32,318 nucleotides of DNA from assembly GCA_028692735.1 (NCBI GenBank), contig JAQUWS010000011.1, forward strand, positions 1-32,318, written 5' to 3'. The stretch is from Candidatus Altimarinota bacterium (lineage in GTDB: Bacteria > Patescibacteriota > Gracilibacteria > BD1-5 > UBA6164). The position numbers were made by a program, and so were the translations under genes. The notes below the pieces were generated by a model. It saw nothing but the letters and a program-made list of their open reading frames with translations, did no database searches and was not told where the DNA came from. This document shows positions 3,103-32,318 of this stretch, piece after piece. Numbering within the stretch: the stretch's first letter is position 1; every line of letters begins with the position of its first letter.

Positions 3103-3762
3103 ATGACAGAATTTAAAATCCCTCTAATTTGAGAACTTGCTCCAGAATTTAATAGCAACTCAACAACATGAGTTATCAATTTTCCAAATGATTACAAATG
3201 AAAATGGACAGTATTATTTTCTCATCCTGCAGATTTTACTCCAGTTTGTACTACAGAATTTGTTGCTTTTCAAGAAAAAAAAGCAGAATTTGATAAAAGA
3301 TGAGTATCCCTAATATGATATTCAGTTGACTGAATTCAATCACATATAGCTTGGATAAATAATATAAAAGAAAAATTTTGAGTAAAAATAGAATTCCCCC
3401 TTGTGTCAGATATAAGTATAGCTTACAAATATGGAATGCTTCATCCAACAGCTGATTCAAATCATACAGTAAGAGCCGTATTTGTTATTGATCCAGATTG
3501 AAAAATTGCTGCTCTTATGTATTACCCTTTATCAAACTGAAGAAATATAGATGAAATATTAAGACTTGTTGATTCTTTACAAATGACTGCAAATAATGGC
3601 AAAGCTACTCCTGCTAATTGGCCAAATAATAGTATATTTAATGACAGAGTAATTATCCCTCCTGCTGCAAATTTAGAACAAATGGAAAAAAATTTAACAC
3701 AATATGAATGTAAAGATTGGTACTTATGTACTCAAGAAAATCCAACAAAAAAAGCGAATTAA
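3103..3762 (+). CDS. peroxiredoxin (Prx6/archaeal-type AhpC-TSA)
   Basis: 219 aa, cytosolic (no signal peptide). It reduces hydrogen peroxide and organic peroxides. The peroxidatic Cys49 sits in [12 protein letters not shown], the canonical PxxxTxxC motif. Downstream come [12 protein letters not shown] and the Prx6-type C-terminal arm ending in ECKDWYLC, with two cysteines near residues 203 and 209. That spacing recalls archaeal peroxiredoxins of the Prx6 subfamily that use C-terminal cysteines to resolve the sulfenic acid. The gene is divergent from the Fur-like regulator and has a Fur box at its start of transcription, so peroxide or metal control is likely. Its last codons form half of the terminator hairpin and overlap the tail of the NUDIX gene by 4 bp. 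Confidence 0.93.
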
Positions 3763-4207: not shown

Positions 4208-5389
4208 TTATTTTAATAGTTTATCTATTAATACCTTAAAGTTTTCATATGGATAAGCTCAACTTATTACATCAAATTCTCATGTCTCATTATTTACAAG
4301 AATACTTGCTGGAGTTCAAGTTATTGCAAAAACCGTAGATCAACTTGACATTTGATTTATAACCTTTTGACTATATTTTGATGAATTTACACAATCCTCT
4401 AATTTCTGTTTATCAGCTCATAAATTTACTGCCTCATCAATAAGATAAGTTTCTTCAGATTTTTCATCACTATAAGCTTTAGCAATCAAACTATAAAAAG
4501 CATCACTTCATTTTTGTTCTCATAAACATTCCAAAACTAATGCTCAACTAAGTGCATTTTGATGAAAACTTAGAGGAAAATTATTAAAATATTTATTTAC
4601 ACTTCAAGAATAATCTTTATTTATTTTAGTTTCAACATCAGAGTTATGAAACTTAGCACAATAAGGACACTCTAAGTCACTATATTCTATCCATGATATC
4701 TTTGCATTTTTATTTCATTTTAAATAAGTATTTATTTTTATAGAATCTAAGACAGTTTTATCAATAATCAAAAATCACTTACTTGATCTTTCTAAAAATG
4801 GATCAAAAGTTGATCAAACATTTAACGAAAACTGCTTATCTTTTAACTCTTCTAAATATGGAGTCATTGTTCATTCATCACCTAAATCATTTGTTGATAA
4901 TATAACTACTGGTAGATGAGATATACTGTTTTCTTTTAAATAATCAGAAACTCAAATATCAGAAAAATCTTTAATTACAAATTTTGCTGATGTTAAAAAA
5001 GAAGTTTGTTTAATTTGAGTAGTTATCACTTCAGTCATACAATTAGTACATCTTTTATCTCAAATAATTGTAACAACTACATTTGAAGATTTAGTTCTAT
5101 TAGATATCTCTGAAGATACTAAATTACTTAAAGCCGTCAATTGTCATAACAATGTTTCTTTTTTTGTATCTGTTAATTTACTATTACTTTCAGTACTAGT
5201 TATAGCATTTTCTATTTTTATTTTCAATTTTTCTAACACATTTGTATTATACTTTGAAAAATTAATTTTACTTTTAAAAGCCTGTTCATACTTTGAAGTA
5301 TTATTTACAACATTTACTATAGAATATGCATTTACTTGTAAAAAAGTAAATCATAACACAAAACACAATAAAAAACCTATTTTTTTCAT
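4208..5389 (-). CDS. exported DsbA-like protein with two thioredoxin-fold domains
   Basis: 393 aa with an N-terminal signal or anchor (residues 1-21: MKK, a hydrophobic run, then VNA). The first thioredoxin-like domain has CTNC at 114-117 and a likely cis-Pro in SHLPVVIL near 160. The second, at about 225-393, is DsbA-like: IEYSDLECPYCAKFH (CPYC at 241-244), a helical insert and cis-Pro in ITGTPASILV near 355. It should act outside the membrane as a thiol oxidase or isomerase. Likely clients exist nearby, such as the six-cysteine protein at 25890-26222. Most DsbA/BdbD proteins have only one such domain. It forms an operon with the NUDIX gene. Confidence 0.88.
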
Positions 5390-12920: not shown

Positions 12921-13580
12921 TTATTCAGATTTTTTATGTCTATTTGCTTCAAAAGTATCTAATTTAGCTTGTTCATCACTTGTAAGAGTTTCTCAATTTT
13001 TCTTTTTTCCCATTATTGTTCTCATTGAATCCATTTCTGCTTTTTTTTCTTTCCTATCAGCTCTTTCTTTTATGATTTCTTGTCTAACTGTTTCTTCGTC
13101 AGATGTCAAAGTTTGTCAAGCTAATAACTTATCTATTACATTGTCTTCTGCTATCATTTTAGCTTCAGCTTCAGTTATTTTTTGCTCAAAGAAAATTTTC
13201 TTTTCATCATCTGTCATAGATTGCAATGCTGTTTTTTCTGCATCAGTTAATTCTTGTCACATAAAATGACCTCTGCCATGTCATTTTCCTCACATATCTC
13301 ATCAAAATCATTTTCATTCAGATCTATTTGCTTCAAAAGCATCTAATTTAGTTTGTTCCTCTGTTGTCAGAGTCTCTCAACTTTTCTTTTTATCCATTAT
13401 TGTTTTTATTGCATCCATTTCTGCCTTTTGTTCATCCGTTAATTCTGGCATTTTTCTAAATTCTTTAAAAGTATCAGTAGTACCAGAAGAAGTAGTTGAA
13501 TCATTGGCAAAAGAAACTCATACTCAACCTACAACAACCGTAGTAAGCAATAATCATGTTAATAACTCTTTATTCTTCAT
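12921..13580 (-). CDS. exported LTxxQ-like repeat protein 1
   Basis: 219 aa with a signal peptide (MKNKELL, a hydrophobic stretch, then VSFAN near residue 27). Two copies of one helical module occur, about residues 38-80 and 170-216: K-A-E-M-D, IKTIMDKKKSGETLT, EEQTKLDAFEANR in the first, nearly the same in the second. Between them is a Gly/His-rich stretch (KGFGGDMGGKGHGRGH, possibly metal-binding) and a second helical part with LTDAEKTALQSMT. The LTxEQ phrases recall the LTxxQ motif of Spy/CpxP periplasmic stress chaperones, but homology is not certain. It is paralogous to the next gene upstream. Its promoter carries the CTTAA box at 13735-13751. Confidence 0.85.
12942..13040. repeat. about 99-bp direct repeat, copy 1
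   Basis: Nearly identical in length and closely similar in sequence to 13326-13424, encoding the C-terminal module of the LTxxQ-like protein. A more diverged third copy is in the neighbouring gene (about 14114-14212). Confidence 0.7.
13326..13424. repeat. about 99-bp direct repeat, copy 2
   Basis: Partner of 12942-13040; encodes the N-terminal module of the same protein. Both begin ATTTGCTTCAAAAG and end CATTTCTGC on the plus strand, which suggests a module duplication within the gene. Confidence 0.7.
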
Positions 13581-13755: not shown

Positions 13756-14523
13756 TTACTCAAACAAATCTTCAATTAAACTATCAGCATCAGAATCATC
13801 AGTTTTTCAATTTACATTATCTATTTCATCATTTATAAGTTCTAACATATAACTAAATATATTACTATATGCAGATTTTTTGGTGTCAGAGTAAGATGAA
13901 TTAGAAACATTTGTTTGTTTTTTTTCTATATTATTTTTTAATTTATTTAAAAGTGTAAGCTTATCATCATCAGAATAAGAATCTAATCATTTAAATACAC
14001 TATTTACAGCTGAATCTATTTTAGTTTTATAAGAATTACTAATTTTATAACTTGAAATAGTCTTTTGTTGATTATCTCTTTTCTTATCTATTGATCAACT
14101 TCACATAGAATGTCTATTAGCTTCATATTGATTTAAAATAATTTGTTCCTCATCAGTCAAAGTTTCTCAATTCTTCTTTTTTTCGATAATTGTTTTTACT
14201 TCTTCCATTTGAGCCTTTTGTTCATCAGTCATCTCTGGGATATTGGCTCCTGATCAATTCATCATTCTAAAATCTTTTCACATATTCATAGTTCAAGATC
14301 ACATTTTCATATCCTTTCATGATCATGTTGGTATACAAGATTTTACATTATCCAAAACAGTTTGTTCATCATCTGTCAATGTTTTTCAATTATGTTGTTT
14401 ATCTAAAATTGTTTTTAAATCTTGCATATTGAGTGTAGAACAATCATACGAAGCTGATGTTAAATAAGTTAAACCTAAAAAAGGTAAAACAGCAACTGTT
14501 GCTATTAATTTTCTATTTTTCAT
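13756..14523 (-). CDS. exported LTxxQ-like repeat protein 2
   Basis: 255 aa with a signal peptide (MKNRKLIA, hydrophobic core, cleavage near TSASYD). Two modules match those of the downstream paralogue: MQDLKTILDKQHNGKTLT with DDEQTVLD (about residues 29-57) and MTDEQKAQMEEVKTIIEKKK with NGETLTDEEQ and NQYEANR (about 93-133). Between them is a Met/Gly/Lys-rich linker (KDMKMGSGTMNMGKDF). The C-terminal third is a separate helical region. Two cysteines (in YDCS and KSCIP) could form a disulfide outside the cell. As with its paralogue, resemblance to Spy/CpxP-type stress proteins rests on the LTxEQ motif and export signal. Its promoter has a CTTAA box at 14616-14632. Confidence 0.85.
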
Positions 14524-14599: not shown

Positions 14600-14632
14600 A
14601 TTATACTTAGTAGGATTAAGAAATATTTAAGA
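14600..14632 (-). promoter_or_regulatory. CTTAA box and -10 upstream of LTxxQ gene 2
   Basis: Plus-strand TTAAGA at 14616-14621 and 14627-14632. On the minus strand TCTTAAATATTTCTTAA is followed by 10 bp and TATAAT (14600-14605). The box overlaps the stop codon of the ferredoxin lipoprotein gene. Confidence 0.75.
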
Positions 14633-15148
14633 GATAGAAATTGCTTGAGCTGGACATTTATCAATAGCTTGTTGAACTCAACTACTATCCAAATTATCTT
14701 GACTTATTACAATTGCGTTATGAGACGCTTTATCAAAAGAAAAATTTGTTGAAGAAAATCTAACACAATGACCACATCAAATACACTTTGAACTTATTGT
14801 TAATTTTTTTCACGTATCTACATCAATCTTTTTAATTTCATCAGTATTTGTATTAGATGAAATAGATACCGAAGAATTATCTTTACTTGATACATTAAAA
14901 TCATTTCATCAAGAATCAATTGTTGTATCAGTAGCAATAGATGATGTATCATCAGAACTATCTTCACTCACTGTATCTATAGAAACACTATTATCATCAA
15001 CACTCTCAGAATCAAAAGATTGCTCATTTTGTGTTGAATTTAATCAATCAGAAGTTCAAGTATTTGTATCTCAAGTATCACTAGAAGAACAGCTTGCAAG
15101 TAACCAAATAGTTAATAAAAAAATTACTCATTTATTAAATTTATTCAT
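14627..15148 (-). CDS. ferredoxin-domain lipoprotein
   Basis: 173 aa. A lipoprotein signal is clear: hydrophobic run, then LLASCSSS, with the lipid-anchored Cys near residue 20. A long Ser/Asp/Thr-rich linker (about 21-110, many acidic residues, no Cys) leads to a small iron-sulfur domain: SSKCIGCGHCVRF, then KCPAQAISIS at the C-terminus. CxxCxxC plus CP gives four ligands for one [4Fe-4S] cluster, as in monocluster ferredoxins. An anchored, extracytoplasmic ferredoxin on a flexible tether is unusual. It follows the cytochrome b/rubredoxin/reductase gene on the same strand (57 bp gap), so the two may exchange electrons. It has its own CTTAA promoter. Confidence 0.88.
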
Positions 15149-15178: not shown

Positions 15179-15211
15179 ATTATAACATTCTAATTTAAGA
15201 AATATTTAAAA
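15179..15211 (-). promoter_or_regulatory. CTTAA box and -10 upstream of ferredoxin lipoprotein gene
   Basis: Plus-strand TTAAGA (15195-15200) and TTAAAA (15206-15211), 11-bp phase. On the minus strand the box is followed by 10 bp and TATAAT (15179-15184). It overlaps the stop of the upstream redox fusion gene, giving this gene an internal promoter in the gene row. Confidence 0.72.
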
Positions 15212-16603
15212 TTTTTCATAAAAAACATTACTTATAATATTCTTTGATTGAAAATATTGCATTGCAGAATCTAAAATTCAAGGATTTCAACATATATAAA
15301 CTTCAGTATTTTCATCAAAACTTATATCTTCAAAGTTAATTCTACCAAAATTATATCATTCAACATTTTCTCTTGATAAATATATATTAACTTTTAGATT
15401 TTTTATTAAACTTAATTTATCTAAATAAAACAAATCTTTTATGTAAGCTACTCAAAAATATAATTCTTTTTCAATATCATCAGACAAACTTAAAAGCATA
15501 GAATATATTGGAGCTAATCATGTTCAAGAAGCAATGAAGACTTTTTTATTTTTAGTATTTTGTAACAAAAATATTCAAGAAACACTTGTAAATTTAACAT
15601 TTTCTCAAACTTTCATTTTCTTAAATAAAATACCTGCTCTTCAATCTTGTTTTATCTTAATTAAGAAAGTAATTAGTTTTTTATCTTTTAAAGCAATAGA
15701 GTAACTTCTATTAAATTCTCATTTATCATCTTTCATAACAAAAGAAACAAATTGTCAATTAACATATTCAAAATCATTTTTTGATATTAAAACCAACTCA
15801 ATAACATCATCCGTCAAATAATTTAAAGAAATTACTTCTCACTCATTTAATTCTATATCTGAGTCTAATAATACAAAATCACTTTTTCAAACTCAGCAAA
15901 CTGGACAAAGCCAATCAGAAGGAATATCTTCAAATCTTGTTCAAGGAGCTATTCAAGAATCAGGATCTCAACTATTTTGATCATATATATATCAACAAGG
16001 AATACATAGCCATTTTGGTCAATTTAAAACCCCTTTACGAGAATTTTTCTTATTTTTAAAATAAGCAATATTAAATATAATAAACCATACAATAACAACA
16101 AAAACTGGTCAAATTTCTCATCTTATCATATAAATATGAATAGCTACAAAAACAAACATAAAATAAGATAATCTCTGTAATAATTTCCAATTTTTTCACA
16201 ACAATTTTGTAGAAAATGAATTTGATGTTAATAATAATGGAATAGATACAAGCAAAGCCAACATTCACCAAAAAAGCAAACCAGTGTAATCCCAAGTAAA
16301 AGAATCAGTAAAAAATCATAATAAGTTACTATAACTCATCATAATAACATATCAAACAGCATGAGCTAATCAAAAAACTCAAACTAAAATTCAAAGTTCT
16401 CTTCTAAATTTTAATAGGTAAATAAACAACTTACACTTAGGAAAAATATCTTTAACCGGTCTTATAAACATTACAACAACAAGTAAAGCCCGAGCTAAAA
16501 ATCAAGATTCCTTATAAAATCAACTTGGAGAAAGTATAACTAATAACGAAGATAACGAAGACAAAAGTAAACCTATTTTTATGTATTTTATATATTTATT
16601 CAT
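15206..16603 (-). CDS. membrane cytochrome b/rubredoxin/flavin reductase fusion
   Basis: 465 aa with three domains in one chain. Residues 1-185 are membrane-embedded and resemble the ferric-reductase-like/MsrQ (YedZ) fold: FRRELGILVGVFGLAHAVGY, then LTSNSFSTKLLG, NWKLLQRLSYF and AIHIYMI, with His81 and His156 as likely heme ligands. Residues 197-243 are a rubredoxin: CIPCGYIYD, DPDSGIAPGTRFEDIP, DWLCPVCG, with Cys200, 203, 233 and 236 binding one iron. Residues about 250-465 are a ferredoxin-NADP reductase-like module with RSYSIA (flavin), GTGLAPIYS (nucleotide) and CGNPGIL. NAD(P)H electrons could pass from flavin to rubredoxin or heme. The ATG at 16603 lies 16 bp after the MacB permease stop. 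Confidence 0.9.
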
Positions 16604-16619
16604 ATTTTGAATTTATATA

Positions 16620-17819
16620 TTATTCAAATCTTAAAGCATCTATAGGTCTAAGTTTAGCTGCTTTATATGCAGGTAGTATACCAAAAAACAATCAAATTCA
16701 AAGTGAAAATAAAAAACTTATAATAATAGATTTTGTTGTAATTATTGCAGATATTGAAAAATAATTCAATATATACACAACAAAATAACTAAAAGCAATT
16801 CATATTATTCATCATAAAATACTTAAACTTGAAGCTTCAGTTAAAAACTGTAATAATATATCTTTTTTTCATGCTCATATAGCCTTTCTTATTCAGATTT
16901 CTTTTGTCCTTTCAGTAACAGAAACAAGCATTATATTCATAACTCAAATTCATCATACAAGTAAAGAAATTCAAGCTATTCAACTTAAGAGTAAAGTCAA
17001 TGTTTCAGTTATAGAACTCATATTTTCTAGCATTTCAGATTGATTTCTTATTCTATATGGCAAATTATTAGTATCAGTCACTTCTAAAACTTTTTGTAAC
17101 AATGTATCAATTTCAGTTTCTTTTGCATCAACTTGTTCAGCATCTTGAACTGCAACTAAAATCTGAGAATAATATTTTTGTCAAGTTATCCTTATAGAAG
17201 CAGTTGTAATTGGAATAAACATATAAGACCCCAAAGTTGAATTTTCTTCAATTACTCATATTACTTCAAAAACATTATTTCACATTTTTATATTCTGTCA
17301 AATAGGATTCTCTCAATCAAAAAGTTCATCAACTATATCCTGTCAAAGAACAGTAACTTTATCTAAATTATCTAAATGAGTTTGAGTAATATTATTTCCA
17401 TAAACTACTTCAACATTCTTTGCACCAAAATAATTAGAATCAATTCAATAAACAGATACACTCATATCATTTGATCAATATTCTAATTGTCAATTAGTAG
17501 AAACAATTGGCAAAACTGAACTTAATCAATCAATATTATTTTTTATCTCTGTCACAACTTTTGCAGTCAATATATTAGTAGCAGTTGCTCTCTCTCTACT
17601 TCATCAAAATCATCATCATGCAGAAATTGTTAAGATATTTGTTCACATTTCTTCTATTTTATCAACAATTGCCTGACTACTACCATTTCATATTGCTGTC
17701 AAAATAATAACTGATGAAACTCAAATTATAATTCAAAGCATACTTAAAGAAGATCTGAGTTTGTTAGATTTTATAGATTCCAACGAATTTACAATATTTT
17801 CAAATACAATATTAAACAT
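16620..17819 (-). CDS. MacB/FtsX-type ABC transporter permease
   Basis: 399 aa. The N-terminus is diagnostic: SLESIKSNKLRSSLSMLGIIIGVSSVI (first membrane helix about 20-40). A large extracytoplasmic MacB-PCD domain of about 220 residues follows, with NIGQ-like segments (GENPIGQNIKMGNNVFEVIGV). The last three helices include [28 protein letters not shown], the FtsX core signature, and the tail is AAKLRPIDALRFE. It works with the ATPase 17 bp upstream and the HlyD-like adaptor to push substrates such as peptides, toxins or lipoproteins outward by mechanotransmission. In single-membrane bacteria the equivalent is YknXYZ. The whole cassette is under the CTTAA promoter at 21003-21036. Confidence 0.95.
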
Positions 17820-17836
17820 ATTTTTTTTGTTAGTCT

Positions 17837-18508
17837 TTAATTCAATATAAGTCAATCTTTTATAAATATATGTTTCTTAGCATAAGCATCAATATCTTTT
17901 TCATGAGTTATCAATACTATTGTTTTTCCCTCATTGTTAAGTTCAGTCAATAAATTCATTATATCTTCTCAAGTCTTAGTATCAAGTGCTCATGTTGGTT
18001 CATCTGCCAAAATCATAGCAGGATTTAATGCTAACGCTCTTGCAATAGATACTCTTTGTTGTTGTCATCAAGAAAGTTCATTAGGTTTATTATCCCTCTT
18101 ATCAGCAAGTCAAACTTTAGCAAGTGCTTCAAGAGCTATTTTCTCTCTTTTTGATTTTGCAATTCATTGGTAAGCTAAAGGAAGCATAACTTGTTTTATG
18201 ACTGACATTCTTGATATAAGATTATAACTTTGAAAAATAAATCATATACTTTTACCTCTTATTTTTGATAAATCATCCTCTCTTTTTCAAGTTATTTCAT
18301 TTCAATCAAATATATATTTTCAATTTGATGGAATATCAAGCATTCATATAATATTCATTAATGTAGATTTTCCACTTCAACTAGGTCACATTATAGAAAC
18401 AAAATCTCATTTATATATAACCAAATCTATTCATTTTAAAACATGAACAATATTTTCTCACATTTTATAATCTTTTTTTATTCATTCTAATTTTATTAAC
18501 ATAATCAT
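17837..18508 (-). CDS. MacB/LolD-type ABC transporter ATPase
   Basis: 223 aa. Walker A is GPSGSGKST (two of its glycines are TGA codons), the Q-loop is FIFQSYNLISRMSV, the signature is LSGGQQQRVSIARAL (both glycines TGA), Walker B is MILADEPTGALD and the H-loop is VLITHEKD. The ADEPTGALDTKTGEDIM segment marks the MacB/LolD/FtsE group. It energises the permease encoded just downstream. The ATG at 18508 is used here; a second in-frame ATG at 18502 would shorten it by two residues. It sits 23 bp after the HlyD-like gene. Confidence 0.96.
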
Positions 18509-18531
18509 TTTATTATTATTAAATACTTTTA

Positions 18532-20619
18532 TTAAAATCAACCTGGAGGTCAGAAATCTCTATTAGAACTACTATTTGAAGAACTAGAAGATGATGACTT
18601 TTTAGATGATGGTCAAAATAGTGATGTTGAAGTTGTAGTATCATTTGAAGAAGAACTTACATAATCAGCAGTAACAACTTGATCTCATGCTTCAAGTCAA
18701 GAAGCTATTTCAGTAACTCAATCTCAATTAATTCATGTAACAATCTCAGTTTCTACTTGCTTTCAATTTTTTAAAACATTAACATAACTTTTTCAATCTT
18801 TTTCTGTTATTGCAGAAGTTTTCAATACCAATATATCTTTTTTTGATTCAACAATTATTTCTATATCAGCCCCCATTCAAGAAAGTATTTTCTTATCAAA
18901 AGTATCATCATTCAAAACCAATTTAACTTCATATGATACAACTCAAGATGTTTCTACAGGCTGAGTATCAATAGAACTAATTTCTGCTTTTACTGTAGTT
19001 GTTGAATAAGCATCAAAAACAACTTTAGCTTCTTGTCATAATTTAACTTTTGTTATATCTATTTGATCAAGCATAACTGTAATTACAAGTAAATCAGGAT
19101 TTTCTATATAAACATATTTATCTGTATCAGTAGTTATATTATCTCAAAGCATGTAATCAATCTTTCTTACTACTCAATCAAAAGGAGCTTCTAACTTATA
19201 ATCATCCAATTTTTTATAAGCACTTTCCAAATTAAGTTCAGCTTGTTTAATAGAATTCTTTGATTTTTGAATTTCATCTGAAGTTGGTCAATCCATCAAT
19301 TCATCATAACTAATATTAGCAAGTTCTAAAGATCTTTCTTTTGAATCAATATCTTTTTGTTTTGTTTCTAAAGCAATTCTATAATTTTCTTTAGTTGTTT
19401 CTAAATCTTTTTCACTATTTTCAATACTAATTTCTTGTTTTTTTATACTTAATTCACTTGCTGTTATTGATACCTGAGTTTGTTCTATAGTATTAGAATT
19501 ACTTTGACTAATTAAATCAGTATCAGATAATGTATCTAATGTATTTAAAGAAGAATTAATTGTTGTAGACTTATTTTGTGCAGTTGTTCTATAAGAAGAC
19601 ATAATACTTTTCTTTGTTTGTATATCTGAATCAGATAAAGCTCAATCACTTTCTACACTATTATCAAGAGTTTTATAAATTAAATCGGTTGTATCAGCTA
19701 AATCATTATAAACATTTAAATACTTAGTTAATAAAGTCTTAATAGAACTAATATTTCAATCATAATTATATTTACTAACTGTTGACTTCAAATCTTCATA
19801 TAAGCTAATAGAACTAAGTAATGAAGCTGTTGCTTTAGATTTAACTGCTAAATCTTTTGCTCATAAATAATTTTCGTATGAATTATTTTTATCTTTATTA
19901 TCATTAGAAACTCACATAATATAATCTGATTGTTCAATTATATTTTCTATTTCAGATAAATTAGTTTTTAAAGTATTTTCAATATTAATAACTGTAGTAC
20001 TTTTATTAGAAACAGTATTACTTAAAGAATTTTGTTGTGTTTGCTTCAAAGTTTCTAATTGTTTCTTTGATAATTCTAAATTAGTTTTAGAAGTTTCTAA
20101 ATCTCCCTTAGAAGTTTCAATATTTTTTTCTAATTGTGTTAAAGAATTCTGTTGAGTTGTTTTTAAATTTTCATACTCCTTTTTAGCAATTTCTAAACTA
20201 TTCTCAGCAGAAGTTATAGCATTTTTTGATTGTAGTATCTGACTTTTATCTGGCTCATCAAAAAGTTGTTTATAACTAATATTAGCATTATCTAAGCTTA
20301 TTTGAGCCTGTTCAATAGAATCATAAACATCTGTATTATCAAGTTCTGCAATTATATCTCACTTTTTTACTGTATCTCATGCTTTAAAAGTTACTTTTGT
20401 AATAGTTCATTCTTTAGTAAATTTTAAACTCTGTTCATCAACTAACTCAGAATCTCATGATACTTCAATTGTATTCTCAATACTTCAAGTTTCAACAATA
20501 AGTGTTGAGCCTGATGACGAAGTAGATGTTGTTGAACTGAATTGATAAAAAGTTTTGTAATTTATTGCTAAAATAAAAATCAATCAAATTAAAAAATACT
20601 TAGTGTTAAATTTAAACAT
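18532..20619 (-). CDS. MacA/HlyD-family membrane-fusion adaptor, long coiled-coil form
   Basis: 695 aa, nearly twice the length of MacA. An N-terminal membrane anchor (about 7-22) is followed by the barrel-sandwich half GTITKVTFKAGDTVKKGDIIAELD (about 65-90), a very long Ser/Thr/Lys-rich coiled coil (about 95-480), the second half LEAPFDGVVRKIDYMLGD, then beta-barrel domains and a low-complexity Ser/Asn tail ending SNRDFGPPGGF. The coil contains an internal duplication: ANISYKQLFDEPDKSQ with QSKNAITSAENSLE near 108-150, and ANISYDELMDGPTSDE with QKSKNSIKQAELNLE near 431-475. It would bridge the permease to the cell exterior or wall. It is second in an operon with the small membrane protein, ATPase and permease. 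Confidence 0.92.
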
Positions 20620-20637
20620 GTTCTATAAAATTATATA

Positions 20638-20967
20638 TTAATTACTTCAAGTTGAAGTATTTTGTAATTTAACAGATCAACTTCATGACCTATTAGGCAT
20701 TATATCTCTTAAACTTTCTCATGATTTAAGTTTTGACTTTAATTCATCCTTAGTTATACCTGCTCTTTCAGCCATTTTTTCTAATTGAGAATCAGACATA
20801 CTTGAAACATCCATATTTCAATTAGGAGGAGTTCAAGGATTTCATCAAAAAGAAGAATTATTTGATGATCAAGGGATAAAATAAGAGTAAGAGTAAACTA
20901 ATATTCATCATATTATCATACCTAAAACAAAGGAAATTATTTTTCATATTAAAACATTATCTTTCAT
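20638..20967 (-). CDS. small membrane protein, first gene of the exporter operon
   Basis: 109 aa. One membrane helix near the N-terminus (about residues 6-30: LIGKIISFVLGMIIGGILVYSY) is followed by a Gly/Pro/Asn-rich stretch and a helical part: MSDSQLEKMAERAGITKDEL, then KSKLKSGESLRDIMP. The GITKDELKSKLKSGESL phrase resembles DUF2680-type helical repeats and the SGETL phrase of the LTxxQ-like proteins. The function is unknown. Its location, 18 bp before the HlyD-like gene, suggests an accessory or substrate-linked subunit of the exporter, comparable in place to YknW beside YknXYZ, though there is no sequence similarity I can claim. Confidence 0.8.
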
Positions 20968-31870: not shown

Positions 31871-31902
31871 AAAATAAAATCATTAATTTTTATATTAATG
31901 AT
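31871..31902 (-). terminator. terminator of the superoxide reductase gene
   Basis: ATCATTAAT and ATTAATGAT (31879-31887 and 31894-31902) form a stem over the stop codon at 31890-31892. On the minus strand it is followed by TTTATTTTTT. Confidence 0.65.
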
Positions 31903-32318
31903 AATTTATTAATTAATCATGAACTCCAAAGTCAATGAATATTACACCTAAGTCTTATTTCAAAATCATCTAAATCATGATCATCAAATAAAACATTTCA
32001 TTTATCTTCTACCCCCAAAAACTTCTCCTCTACTAAATCTCAATACTCATCATACAAAGCTATACTTGAAATAAAATGACTATCTTCACTTGGATGTGCT
32101 TCATCTTTTCAAATACTTACTTCAAGTTTTCAATCTTTAAAAGAAATTAAAGGAAAATGATACTCCTCTTCAAAAGATAAATCTTGATTTTTAGAAAAAT
32201 AATTTATCTCATCATTAATTTCTTGAAAAAAATCAATATTTTCACCACAAACTGGACACGAGAAAAAATCTTGCATACTACTGAGTAAAACTCATGATTC
32301 ATATCATTCTGTAATATC
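31890..32318 (-). CDS. superoxide reductase (desulfoferrodoxin/neelaredoxin-like), possibly cut by window edge
   Basis: The frame stays open to the window edge (142 codons). An internal ATG at 32276 would give 128 aa, the family's usual length, starting MQDFFSCPVCGENIDFF. The catalytic iron site looks complete: His in EYHFP, two His in EAHPSEDSHFISSI, and Cys plus His in CNIHGLW, matching the His4Cys centre that reduces superoxide to peroxide. The Lys next to the first His in many enzymes is Tyr here. The N-terminal CxxC lacks the paired CC of a full desulforedoxin centre, so iron centre I is probably absent or is a zinc ribbon. The product peroxide could be handled by the peroxiredoxin, and rubredoxin is the usual donor. 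Confidence 0.8.

Follow-up and report, generated by a model that had tools for sequence, protein, structure and literature searches.

The protein closest in layout to the one analysed here is Vamp_33_45 of Vampirococcus lugosii, in which, as in its Absconditabacteria/SR1 homologs, a flavocytochrome-like transmembrane (TM) part, a rubredoxin and an FNR-like NAD-binding part follow one another (Moreira et al. 2021, PMC8080830). Eight TM helices were described for this protein and the function proposed for it, in an account that includes no exported partner, was the generation of a proton motive force (PMF). Beyond that report, our search of the open-access literature found no other description of the fusion.

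Parts of the same layout occur in other FRD proteins. In the MsrPQ system of E. coli, an FRD membrane heme protein receives electrons from an FNR-type flavin reductase, Fre, and delivers them to an exported protein. SpNOX (8qt6, 8qq7) carries FRD and FNR domains in one chain; it binds two hemes through four His and has no rubredoxin. STEAP1, STEAP2 and STEAP4, which have the closest membrane-domain fold and one outer heme, are eukaryotic, bear a different cytosolic domain (none in STEAP1) and likewise lack rubredoxin. MsrQ-like systems associated with flavinylation have been reported mainly from Actinobacteria (Meheust et al. 2021, PMC8238504), and the same study found flavinylation to be strikingly underrepresented in CPR.

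Here we analyse a fusion gene encoded in a window of 32,318 nucleotides, contig C69 of a Candidatus Altimarinota bacterium whose genome (G000) is a single metagenome-assembled genome of 1.53 Mb in 98 contigs, 92% complete. The window protein shares with Vamp_33_45 the wider lineage, the genetic code and the domain order, a likeness of description rather than of alignment; it differs in having six helices and in being adjoined by an exported ferredoxin lipoprotein. Compared with E. coli MsrPQ and Fre, it is one chain instead of two, adds a rubredoxin and comes without MsrP. The window fusion is thus not a new single case: its architecture is already published and is common in this taxonomic order. 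What is new here is the link of the fusion to exported flavin proteins in relatives, the exported ferredoxin of the window lineage and the variants of the fusion, for none of which we found an earlier description in the open-access literature.

A single reading frame for three domains

The 465-aa fusion is encoded on the minus strand (16603..15206) in one frame, which is open only when TGA is read as Gly (code 25), the code known from Gracilibacteria and SR1. Thirty TGA codons lie inside it, and translation with table 11 yields no 465-aa frame at 15206-16603. An earlier reading of the same DNA, made from the letters alone and referred to below as the sequence-only reading, had reported one 465-aa frame at this position; its coordinates were right, the frame running along the minus strand with TGA as Gly.

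Pfam recognises Ferric_reduct at residues 34-153 (5e-8; 33.5 bits against a cut-off of 28), Rubredoxin at residues 197-243 (5e-21; 74.9 bits against 23) and, both above the gathering cut-off, FAD_binding_6 at 275-343 and NAD_binding_1 at 356-446. The rubredoxin domain (15875..16015, minus strand) is complete, as had been claimed: the four Cys of its two CxxC(G) knuckles (C200/C203/C233/C236) are invariant across the aligned homologs. It is the sole rubredoxin found in the available genome. The C-terminal part (residues 251-465; 15209..15853, minus strand), previously called ferredoxin-reductase-like, is an FNR-type FAD/NAD(P) reductase domain, matching 4eh1_A in VIA-align with a Z of 28.3. The motifs by which FNR membership was judged, RxYS for FAD and GTGxxP and CGNP for NAD(P), are all present and conserved in the homolog alignment (R299-Y301-S302, G360-T361-G362 and C438-G439-N440-P441).

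An intact, single-frame TM-rubredoxin-FNR gene was found in 28 of the genomes of 60 relatives (29 genes), which are independent assemblies; two further fusion genes are broken or split (G013, G053). An assembly join of separate genes, one of the doubts attached to the sequence-only reading, is ruled out by this recurrence. The closest homologs are 57-59% identical to the window fusion over all three domains, and those that carry names belong to Candidatus Gracilibacteria and SR1/Absconditabacteria. Among 380 Patescibacteria genomes from other orders, no full-length three-domain match was found. The matches examined outside Gracilibacteria/Absconditabacteria never showed the three domains in this order: they were plain rubredoxins, rubredoxins fused to a different enzyme, or FNR proteins.

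Variants of the fusion were seen among the relatives. One set (L038, L040, L042, L044, L045, L046, L048, L051; 540-571 aa) carries about 70-100 extra hydrophobic residues at the N-terminus. These N-extended fusions are probably the eight-helix form described for Vampirococcus, which is like the N-extended relatives L038, L040, L090 and L094. L026 (7407-9047; 546 aa, one frame) has two tandem rubredoxin domains between TM and FNR domains, while L053 (4538-6646) and L054 (3744-5858), of 702-704 aa, combine the TM-rubredoxin part with an FMN domain of the glutamate-synthase type (Glu_synthase 1e-102). A permuted relative of about 500 aa, ordered ferredoxin-FNR-TM and often found beside ApbE, is represented by L052, L055-L061 and L164-L169.

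The membrane domain and its predicted heme site

Residues 1-192 (16028..16603, minus strand) are predicted by AlphaFold2 and VIA-align to form six helices with the FRD/STEAP/NOX fold. Modelled alone, the domain reached a pLDDT of 92.8 and a pTM of 0.86; the whole chain, modelled with 28 homologs, gave 86.4 and 0.60, with uncertain packing of the domains. The best VIA-align matches of the membrane domain include STEAP2 (Z 14.2; 174 residues, 4.1 A), STEAP4 (13.8), CsNOX5 (13.3) and STEAP1; all of the first 19 entries are STEAP, NOX, DUOX or SpNOX structures, with Z values of 10-14 for STEAP and NOX. Since Foldseek returned weak matches for the isolated domain (E about 0.02), the fold is assigned from the Pfam match and from the ranking in VIA-align. 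The heme-type fold supposed for residues 1-185 in the sequence-only reading is thereby borne out at the level of prediction.

So are the two residues named there. His81 (codon 16361..16363, minus strand; helix 3) and His156 (codon 16136..16138, minus strand; helix 5) are both invariant in the fusion homologs of two alignments (22/22 and 28/28) and are the proposed ligands of a distal heme. Together, the match to PF01794, the modelled six-helix fold and the outer His pair on helices 3 and 5 assign the protein to the FRD superfamily. The term "MsrQ-like" holds for fold and superfamily but not for MsrQ proper: the NCBIfam MsrQ model scores 45.8 bits against a cut-off of 130, and only the outer heme site has both His. 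No ferrochelatase was found in G000 (92% complete) although the heme site is conserved, which implies that heme is imported or that a contig is missing.

At the inner site the window protein has R67/R68 and Q143, position 143 being His in some relatives. R67, S127 and W139 are identical in all 53 membrane domains compared, 14 of which lack both heme His. Because these residues are kept even where the heme ligands are lost, the inner (proximal) site probably has a conserved role of its own. By analogy with MsrQ and STEAP, it could possibly hold a flavin; Caux et al. 2021 (cited in PMC11031084) call MsrQ a flavocytochrome in their title. Loss of both heme His with R67, S127 and W139 retained was seen in 11/11 aligned permuted proteins and in three stand-alone TM proteins (L157, L170, L171), the latter adjoining ApbE. 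Judged by these residues, the permuted and stand-alone proteins apparently constitute a heme-less branch.

Taken as a whole, the chain finds its best Foldseek match in SpNOX (8qt6, 8qq7), over both the FRD and FNR domains. This match, along with the peroxiredoxin, Fur-type regulator and superoxide reductase genes of the window, would fit a NOX-like oxidase or an oxygen or peroxide scavenger, whose outer heme would reduce O2 (or peroxide) outside the cell in defence or attack. However, the four His for two hemes that define a NOX are not there, the inner pair being R/Q, and an oxidase would leave the linked ApbE/FMN_bind and ferredoxin lipoprotein genes described below unexplained. We regard this role as quite unlikely.

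As to orientation, the basic loops of the membrane domain (residues 1-9, 49-68, 132-145 and 183-191) lie on the same side as both termini. Because the positive loops share the side of the termini, the rubredoxin and FNR domains are predicted to be cytosolic, which puts the His pair in the outer half of helices 3 and 5.

Genes surrounding the fusion

The fusion gene is part of a same-strand run encoding, in order, a 109-aa protein, a MacA-like protein, an ABC ATPase, a MacB-like protein, the fusion, a ferredoxin lipoprotein and two secreted helical proteins; the successive gaps are 18, -10, -19, 16, 57, 103 and 175 bp. All lie on the minus strand. The probable first gene (20638..20967) encodes a small predicted exported or membrane protein without a Pfam match. 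It is followed, after the 18 bp gap, by a MacA/HlyD-like adaptor (18532..20619; HlyD_3 6.2e-11), by the ABC ATPase of a MacAB-like transporter (17837..18541; Walker and LSGGQ-type motifs), which overlaps both its neighbours, and by a MacB/FtsX-like permease (16620..17855; MacB_PCD 1.6e-39, FtsX 4.3e-24), 16 bp upstream of the fusion. L023 shares the permease-fusion order, and around the fusion the genes of G003 are arranged as in the window.

Located 57 bp downstream of the fusion is the gene for an exported ferredoxin lipoprotein of 173 aa (14627..15148; lipobox LASC20, Fer4_13 1.9e-9), whose cysteines (C122-x2-C125-x2-C128-x36-C165-P) are predicted to bind a [4Fe-4S] cluster. Absent from the sequence-only reading, this lipoprotein is a more telling candidate partner than the superoxide reductase to which that reading had pointed. 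Downstream of it are the genes for two secreted charged helical repeat proteins, both of cluster 15: one of 255 aa (13756..14523), shared with L023, and one of 219 aa (12921..13580), with a homolog downstream of the lipoprotein in L160. These secreted proteins match no Pfam family; those of the window, L023 (3753-4436) and L160 (3465-4151) have repeated LT.EE/DEQ...L motifs and recur 3' of the ferredoxin lipoprotein.

With the lipoprotein as an iron-reducing tip, the fusion might alternatively be a ferric reductase of the STEAP type that serves iron assimilation. The STEAPs, which have one outer heme, are the top structural matches of the membrane domain. Moreover, MsrQ-like systems linked to a VIT1 transporter have been read as assimilatory iron reductases (PMC8238504). 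Yet no iron transporter lies beside the window gene, the upstream transporter being MacAB-like, and such a reductase would be a special case, with its acceptor named, of the transmembrane conduit proposed below. We consider it unlikely.

MsrP, noted in the sequence-only reading as missing from the window, was not found elsewhere in G000 either (PF00174; genome 92% complete), and an MsrP-type repair role was rejected for this reason. Neither ApbE nor FMN_bind was found in the same 92%-complete genome. The linkage to ApbE or FMN_bind by which a flavinylation-associated MsrQ-like system is recognised was thus seen in relatives and not in G000.

Exported partners in relatives

ApbE is present in 44 of the 60 relatives, and 15 of 30 fusion genes have it less than 5 kb away, where chance would give well under one for the 30 at one or two ApbE copies per about 1.2 Mb. 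At L024, L034, L035 and L049, a gene adjoining or close to the fusion encodes an exported protein with FMN_bind above the Pfam cut-off, and two-component regulators are frequent neighbours. This linkage places the fusion of the window's relatives with the MsrQ-like flavinylation-associated systems (PMC8238504). The fit is not complete, as rubredoxin goes unmentioned in those systems and the window fusion carries one; in the window genome, moreover, an exported ferredoxin is found instead of ApbE/FMN_bind.

The ferredoxin lipoprotein adjoins the fusion in three genomes (G000, G003, G031; the loci include L023 and L025) and a stand-alone MsrQ-like gene in four others (G012, G014, G022, G027; L065-L068). 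Six of the seven genomes with such a pairing are without ApbE, and the presence of the lipoprotein is anti-correlated with that of ApbE (Fisher p 0.004 for 61 genomes and 0.002 for the 31 fusion genomes, uncorrected for phylogeny). In a tree of TM domains, the window protein groups with L022, L023, L024 and L026 (SH-aLRT 97) and pairs with L023. Within this five-member group the lipoprotein accompanies the window and L023 genes, and ApbE is adjacent in L022 and L024; L025 and the stand-alone MsrQ-like genes with lipoprotein fall elsewhere in the tree. Since lipoprotein and ApbE loci mix within one group, and lipoprotein loci also occur outside it, the putative exported partner has been exchanged.

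The gene immediately upstream of the fusion encodes, at 17 of the 30 loci, a protein with a conserved C-terminal tail (such as DTTTKAS, NTTTSAS or KTRSRAS); examples are L022 (7212-8231), L024 (6095-7657), L032 (8896-9855), L034 (4920-6956), L044 (2273-2959) and L049 (9090-10715). Most of these proteins have a signal or lipoprotein start, and the low-complexity tethers that bear the tail are otherwise unrelated. Apart from a substitution of the Gly, the tail looks like the ApbE motif Dxx[ST]GA[ST]. Neither the tail nor ApbE is present in the window, L023 or L025.

We suggest, tentatively and as a possibility still open to considerable doubt, that the FRD-rubredoxin-FNR family of TGA=Gly bacteria drives electron transfer outside the cytosol by way of interchangeable exported carriers. 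Some of these carriers may be flavin proteins, part of which end in the [DN]xx[ST]xAS tail, possibly an ApbE site that has gone unrecognised ("flavin on a string"). In the window lineage the carrier would be the [4Fe-4S] ferredoxin lipoprotein, which would have replaced the covalent-flavin machinery.

Superoxide reductase and other redox genes

A superoxide reductase (SOR) fragment is encoded at 31890-32318 on the minus strand, cut by the contig end. Its first residues, FSCPVCGENIDFF, form the last part of a rubredoxin-like domain, and its intact homologs are two-domain Rd-SOR proteins of 155-156 aa. The fragment thus appears to have a rubredoxin domain of its own. No SOR was detected in nine of the fusion genomes (G032, G036, G042, G046, G051, G052, G054, G055, G056). 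Toward one end of the window there are genes for a Fur-family regulator (2479-2889), a peroxiredoxin (3103-3762) and an exported DsbA/thioredoxin-like protein (4208-5389), which add to the redox-stress genes of the window.

According to the sequence-only reading, the fused rubredoxin might feed the SOR, a suggestion that is poorly supported by these data: both the rubredoxin-like start of the fragment and the nine genomes led us to judge it unlikely. A broader version would make the rubredoxin a cytosolic outlet through which the FNR domain supplies SOR or other soluble enzymes, the membrane domain being mainly an anchor or entry port. That no second rubredoxin was found in the available genome, that an SOR lies within the same window and that L053 and L054 join TM-rubredoxin to an FMN domain can all be cited for it. 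Besides the built-in rubredoxin of the Rd-SOR proteins and the fusion genomes in which SOR went undetected, the invariance of H81 and H156 argues against it, as this would be unexpected in a mere anchor. The cytosolic outlet strikes us as very improbable.

Proposed electron path

The view we favour, as somewhat the more probable one, is that the fusion acts as an FRD-superfamily transmembrane conduit leading from NAD(P)H through FAD, rubredoxin and an outer heme b to an exported carrier; we infer the cofactors, the outward direction, the ferredoxin partner and the extracytosolic acceptor. Cytosolic NAD(P)H would reduce FAD in the C-terminal FNR domain, and the fused rubredoxin, a one-electron carrier, would bring single electrons to the cytosolic face of the six-helix domain. 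Next in line would be a single b heme in the membrane's outer half, with H81 and H156 as its ligands, and from it the electrons would go to the exported carrier. In the window lineage this carrier would most likely be the [4Fe-4S] ferredoxin lipoprotein; in many relatives, exported FMN proteins made by ApbE would take its place. The final acceptor would lie outside the cytosol. The single-chain NAD(P)H-to-membrane path put forward in the sequence-only reading is supported by the three Pfam domains, the confident model of the membrane domain, its STEAP/NOX matches and the failure to find MsrP genome-wide.

Several points weigh against this scheme. With no ferrochelatase found, heme would have to be imported. 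Typical rubredoxins have a potential of about 0 mV and ordinary [4Fe-4S] ferredoxins one of about -400 mV. Because the rubredoxin potential is the higher, reduction of the ferredoxin by this route would be uphill unless the potentials are adjusted or an additional carrier takes part. Furthermore, if no heme occupies the inner site, electrons would need another cofactor to get from rubredoxin as far as the outer heme.

The direction of flow also bears on the published proposal for Vamp_33_45, by which the protein would move electrons and/or protons and so power ATP synthase in a cell that does not respire. An ATP synthase is indeed kept without a standard respiratory chain in these genomes (PMC8080830). 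However, electrons leaving from a cytosolic NAD(P)H site while protons stay inside would lower the PMF, which only the reverse flow would build; no proton channel or second half-loop was seen; and the neighbours of the fusion encode exported electron carriers. A PMF-generating device therefore appears improbable to us.

Bacteria of the window lineage dwell on hosts, and their genomes contain very few respiratory genes. For the disposal of electrons in such a host-dependent lineage, the gene neighbours of the fusion point to transfer to the cell exterior. The fusion, formerly an oddity with a guessed PMF role, thus has neighbours that suggest a purpose. With ApbE present in so many of the relatives, flavinylation is not as close to absent from this part of CPR as had seemed. 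Finally, the natural swap of a covalent-flavin for an iron-sulfur exported carrier on the same membrane protein would make the interchangeability of the two directly testable.
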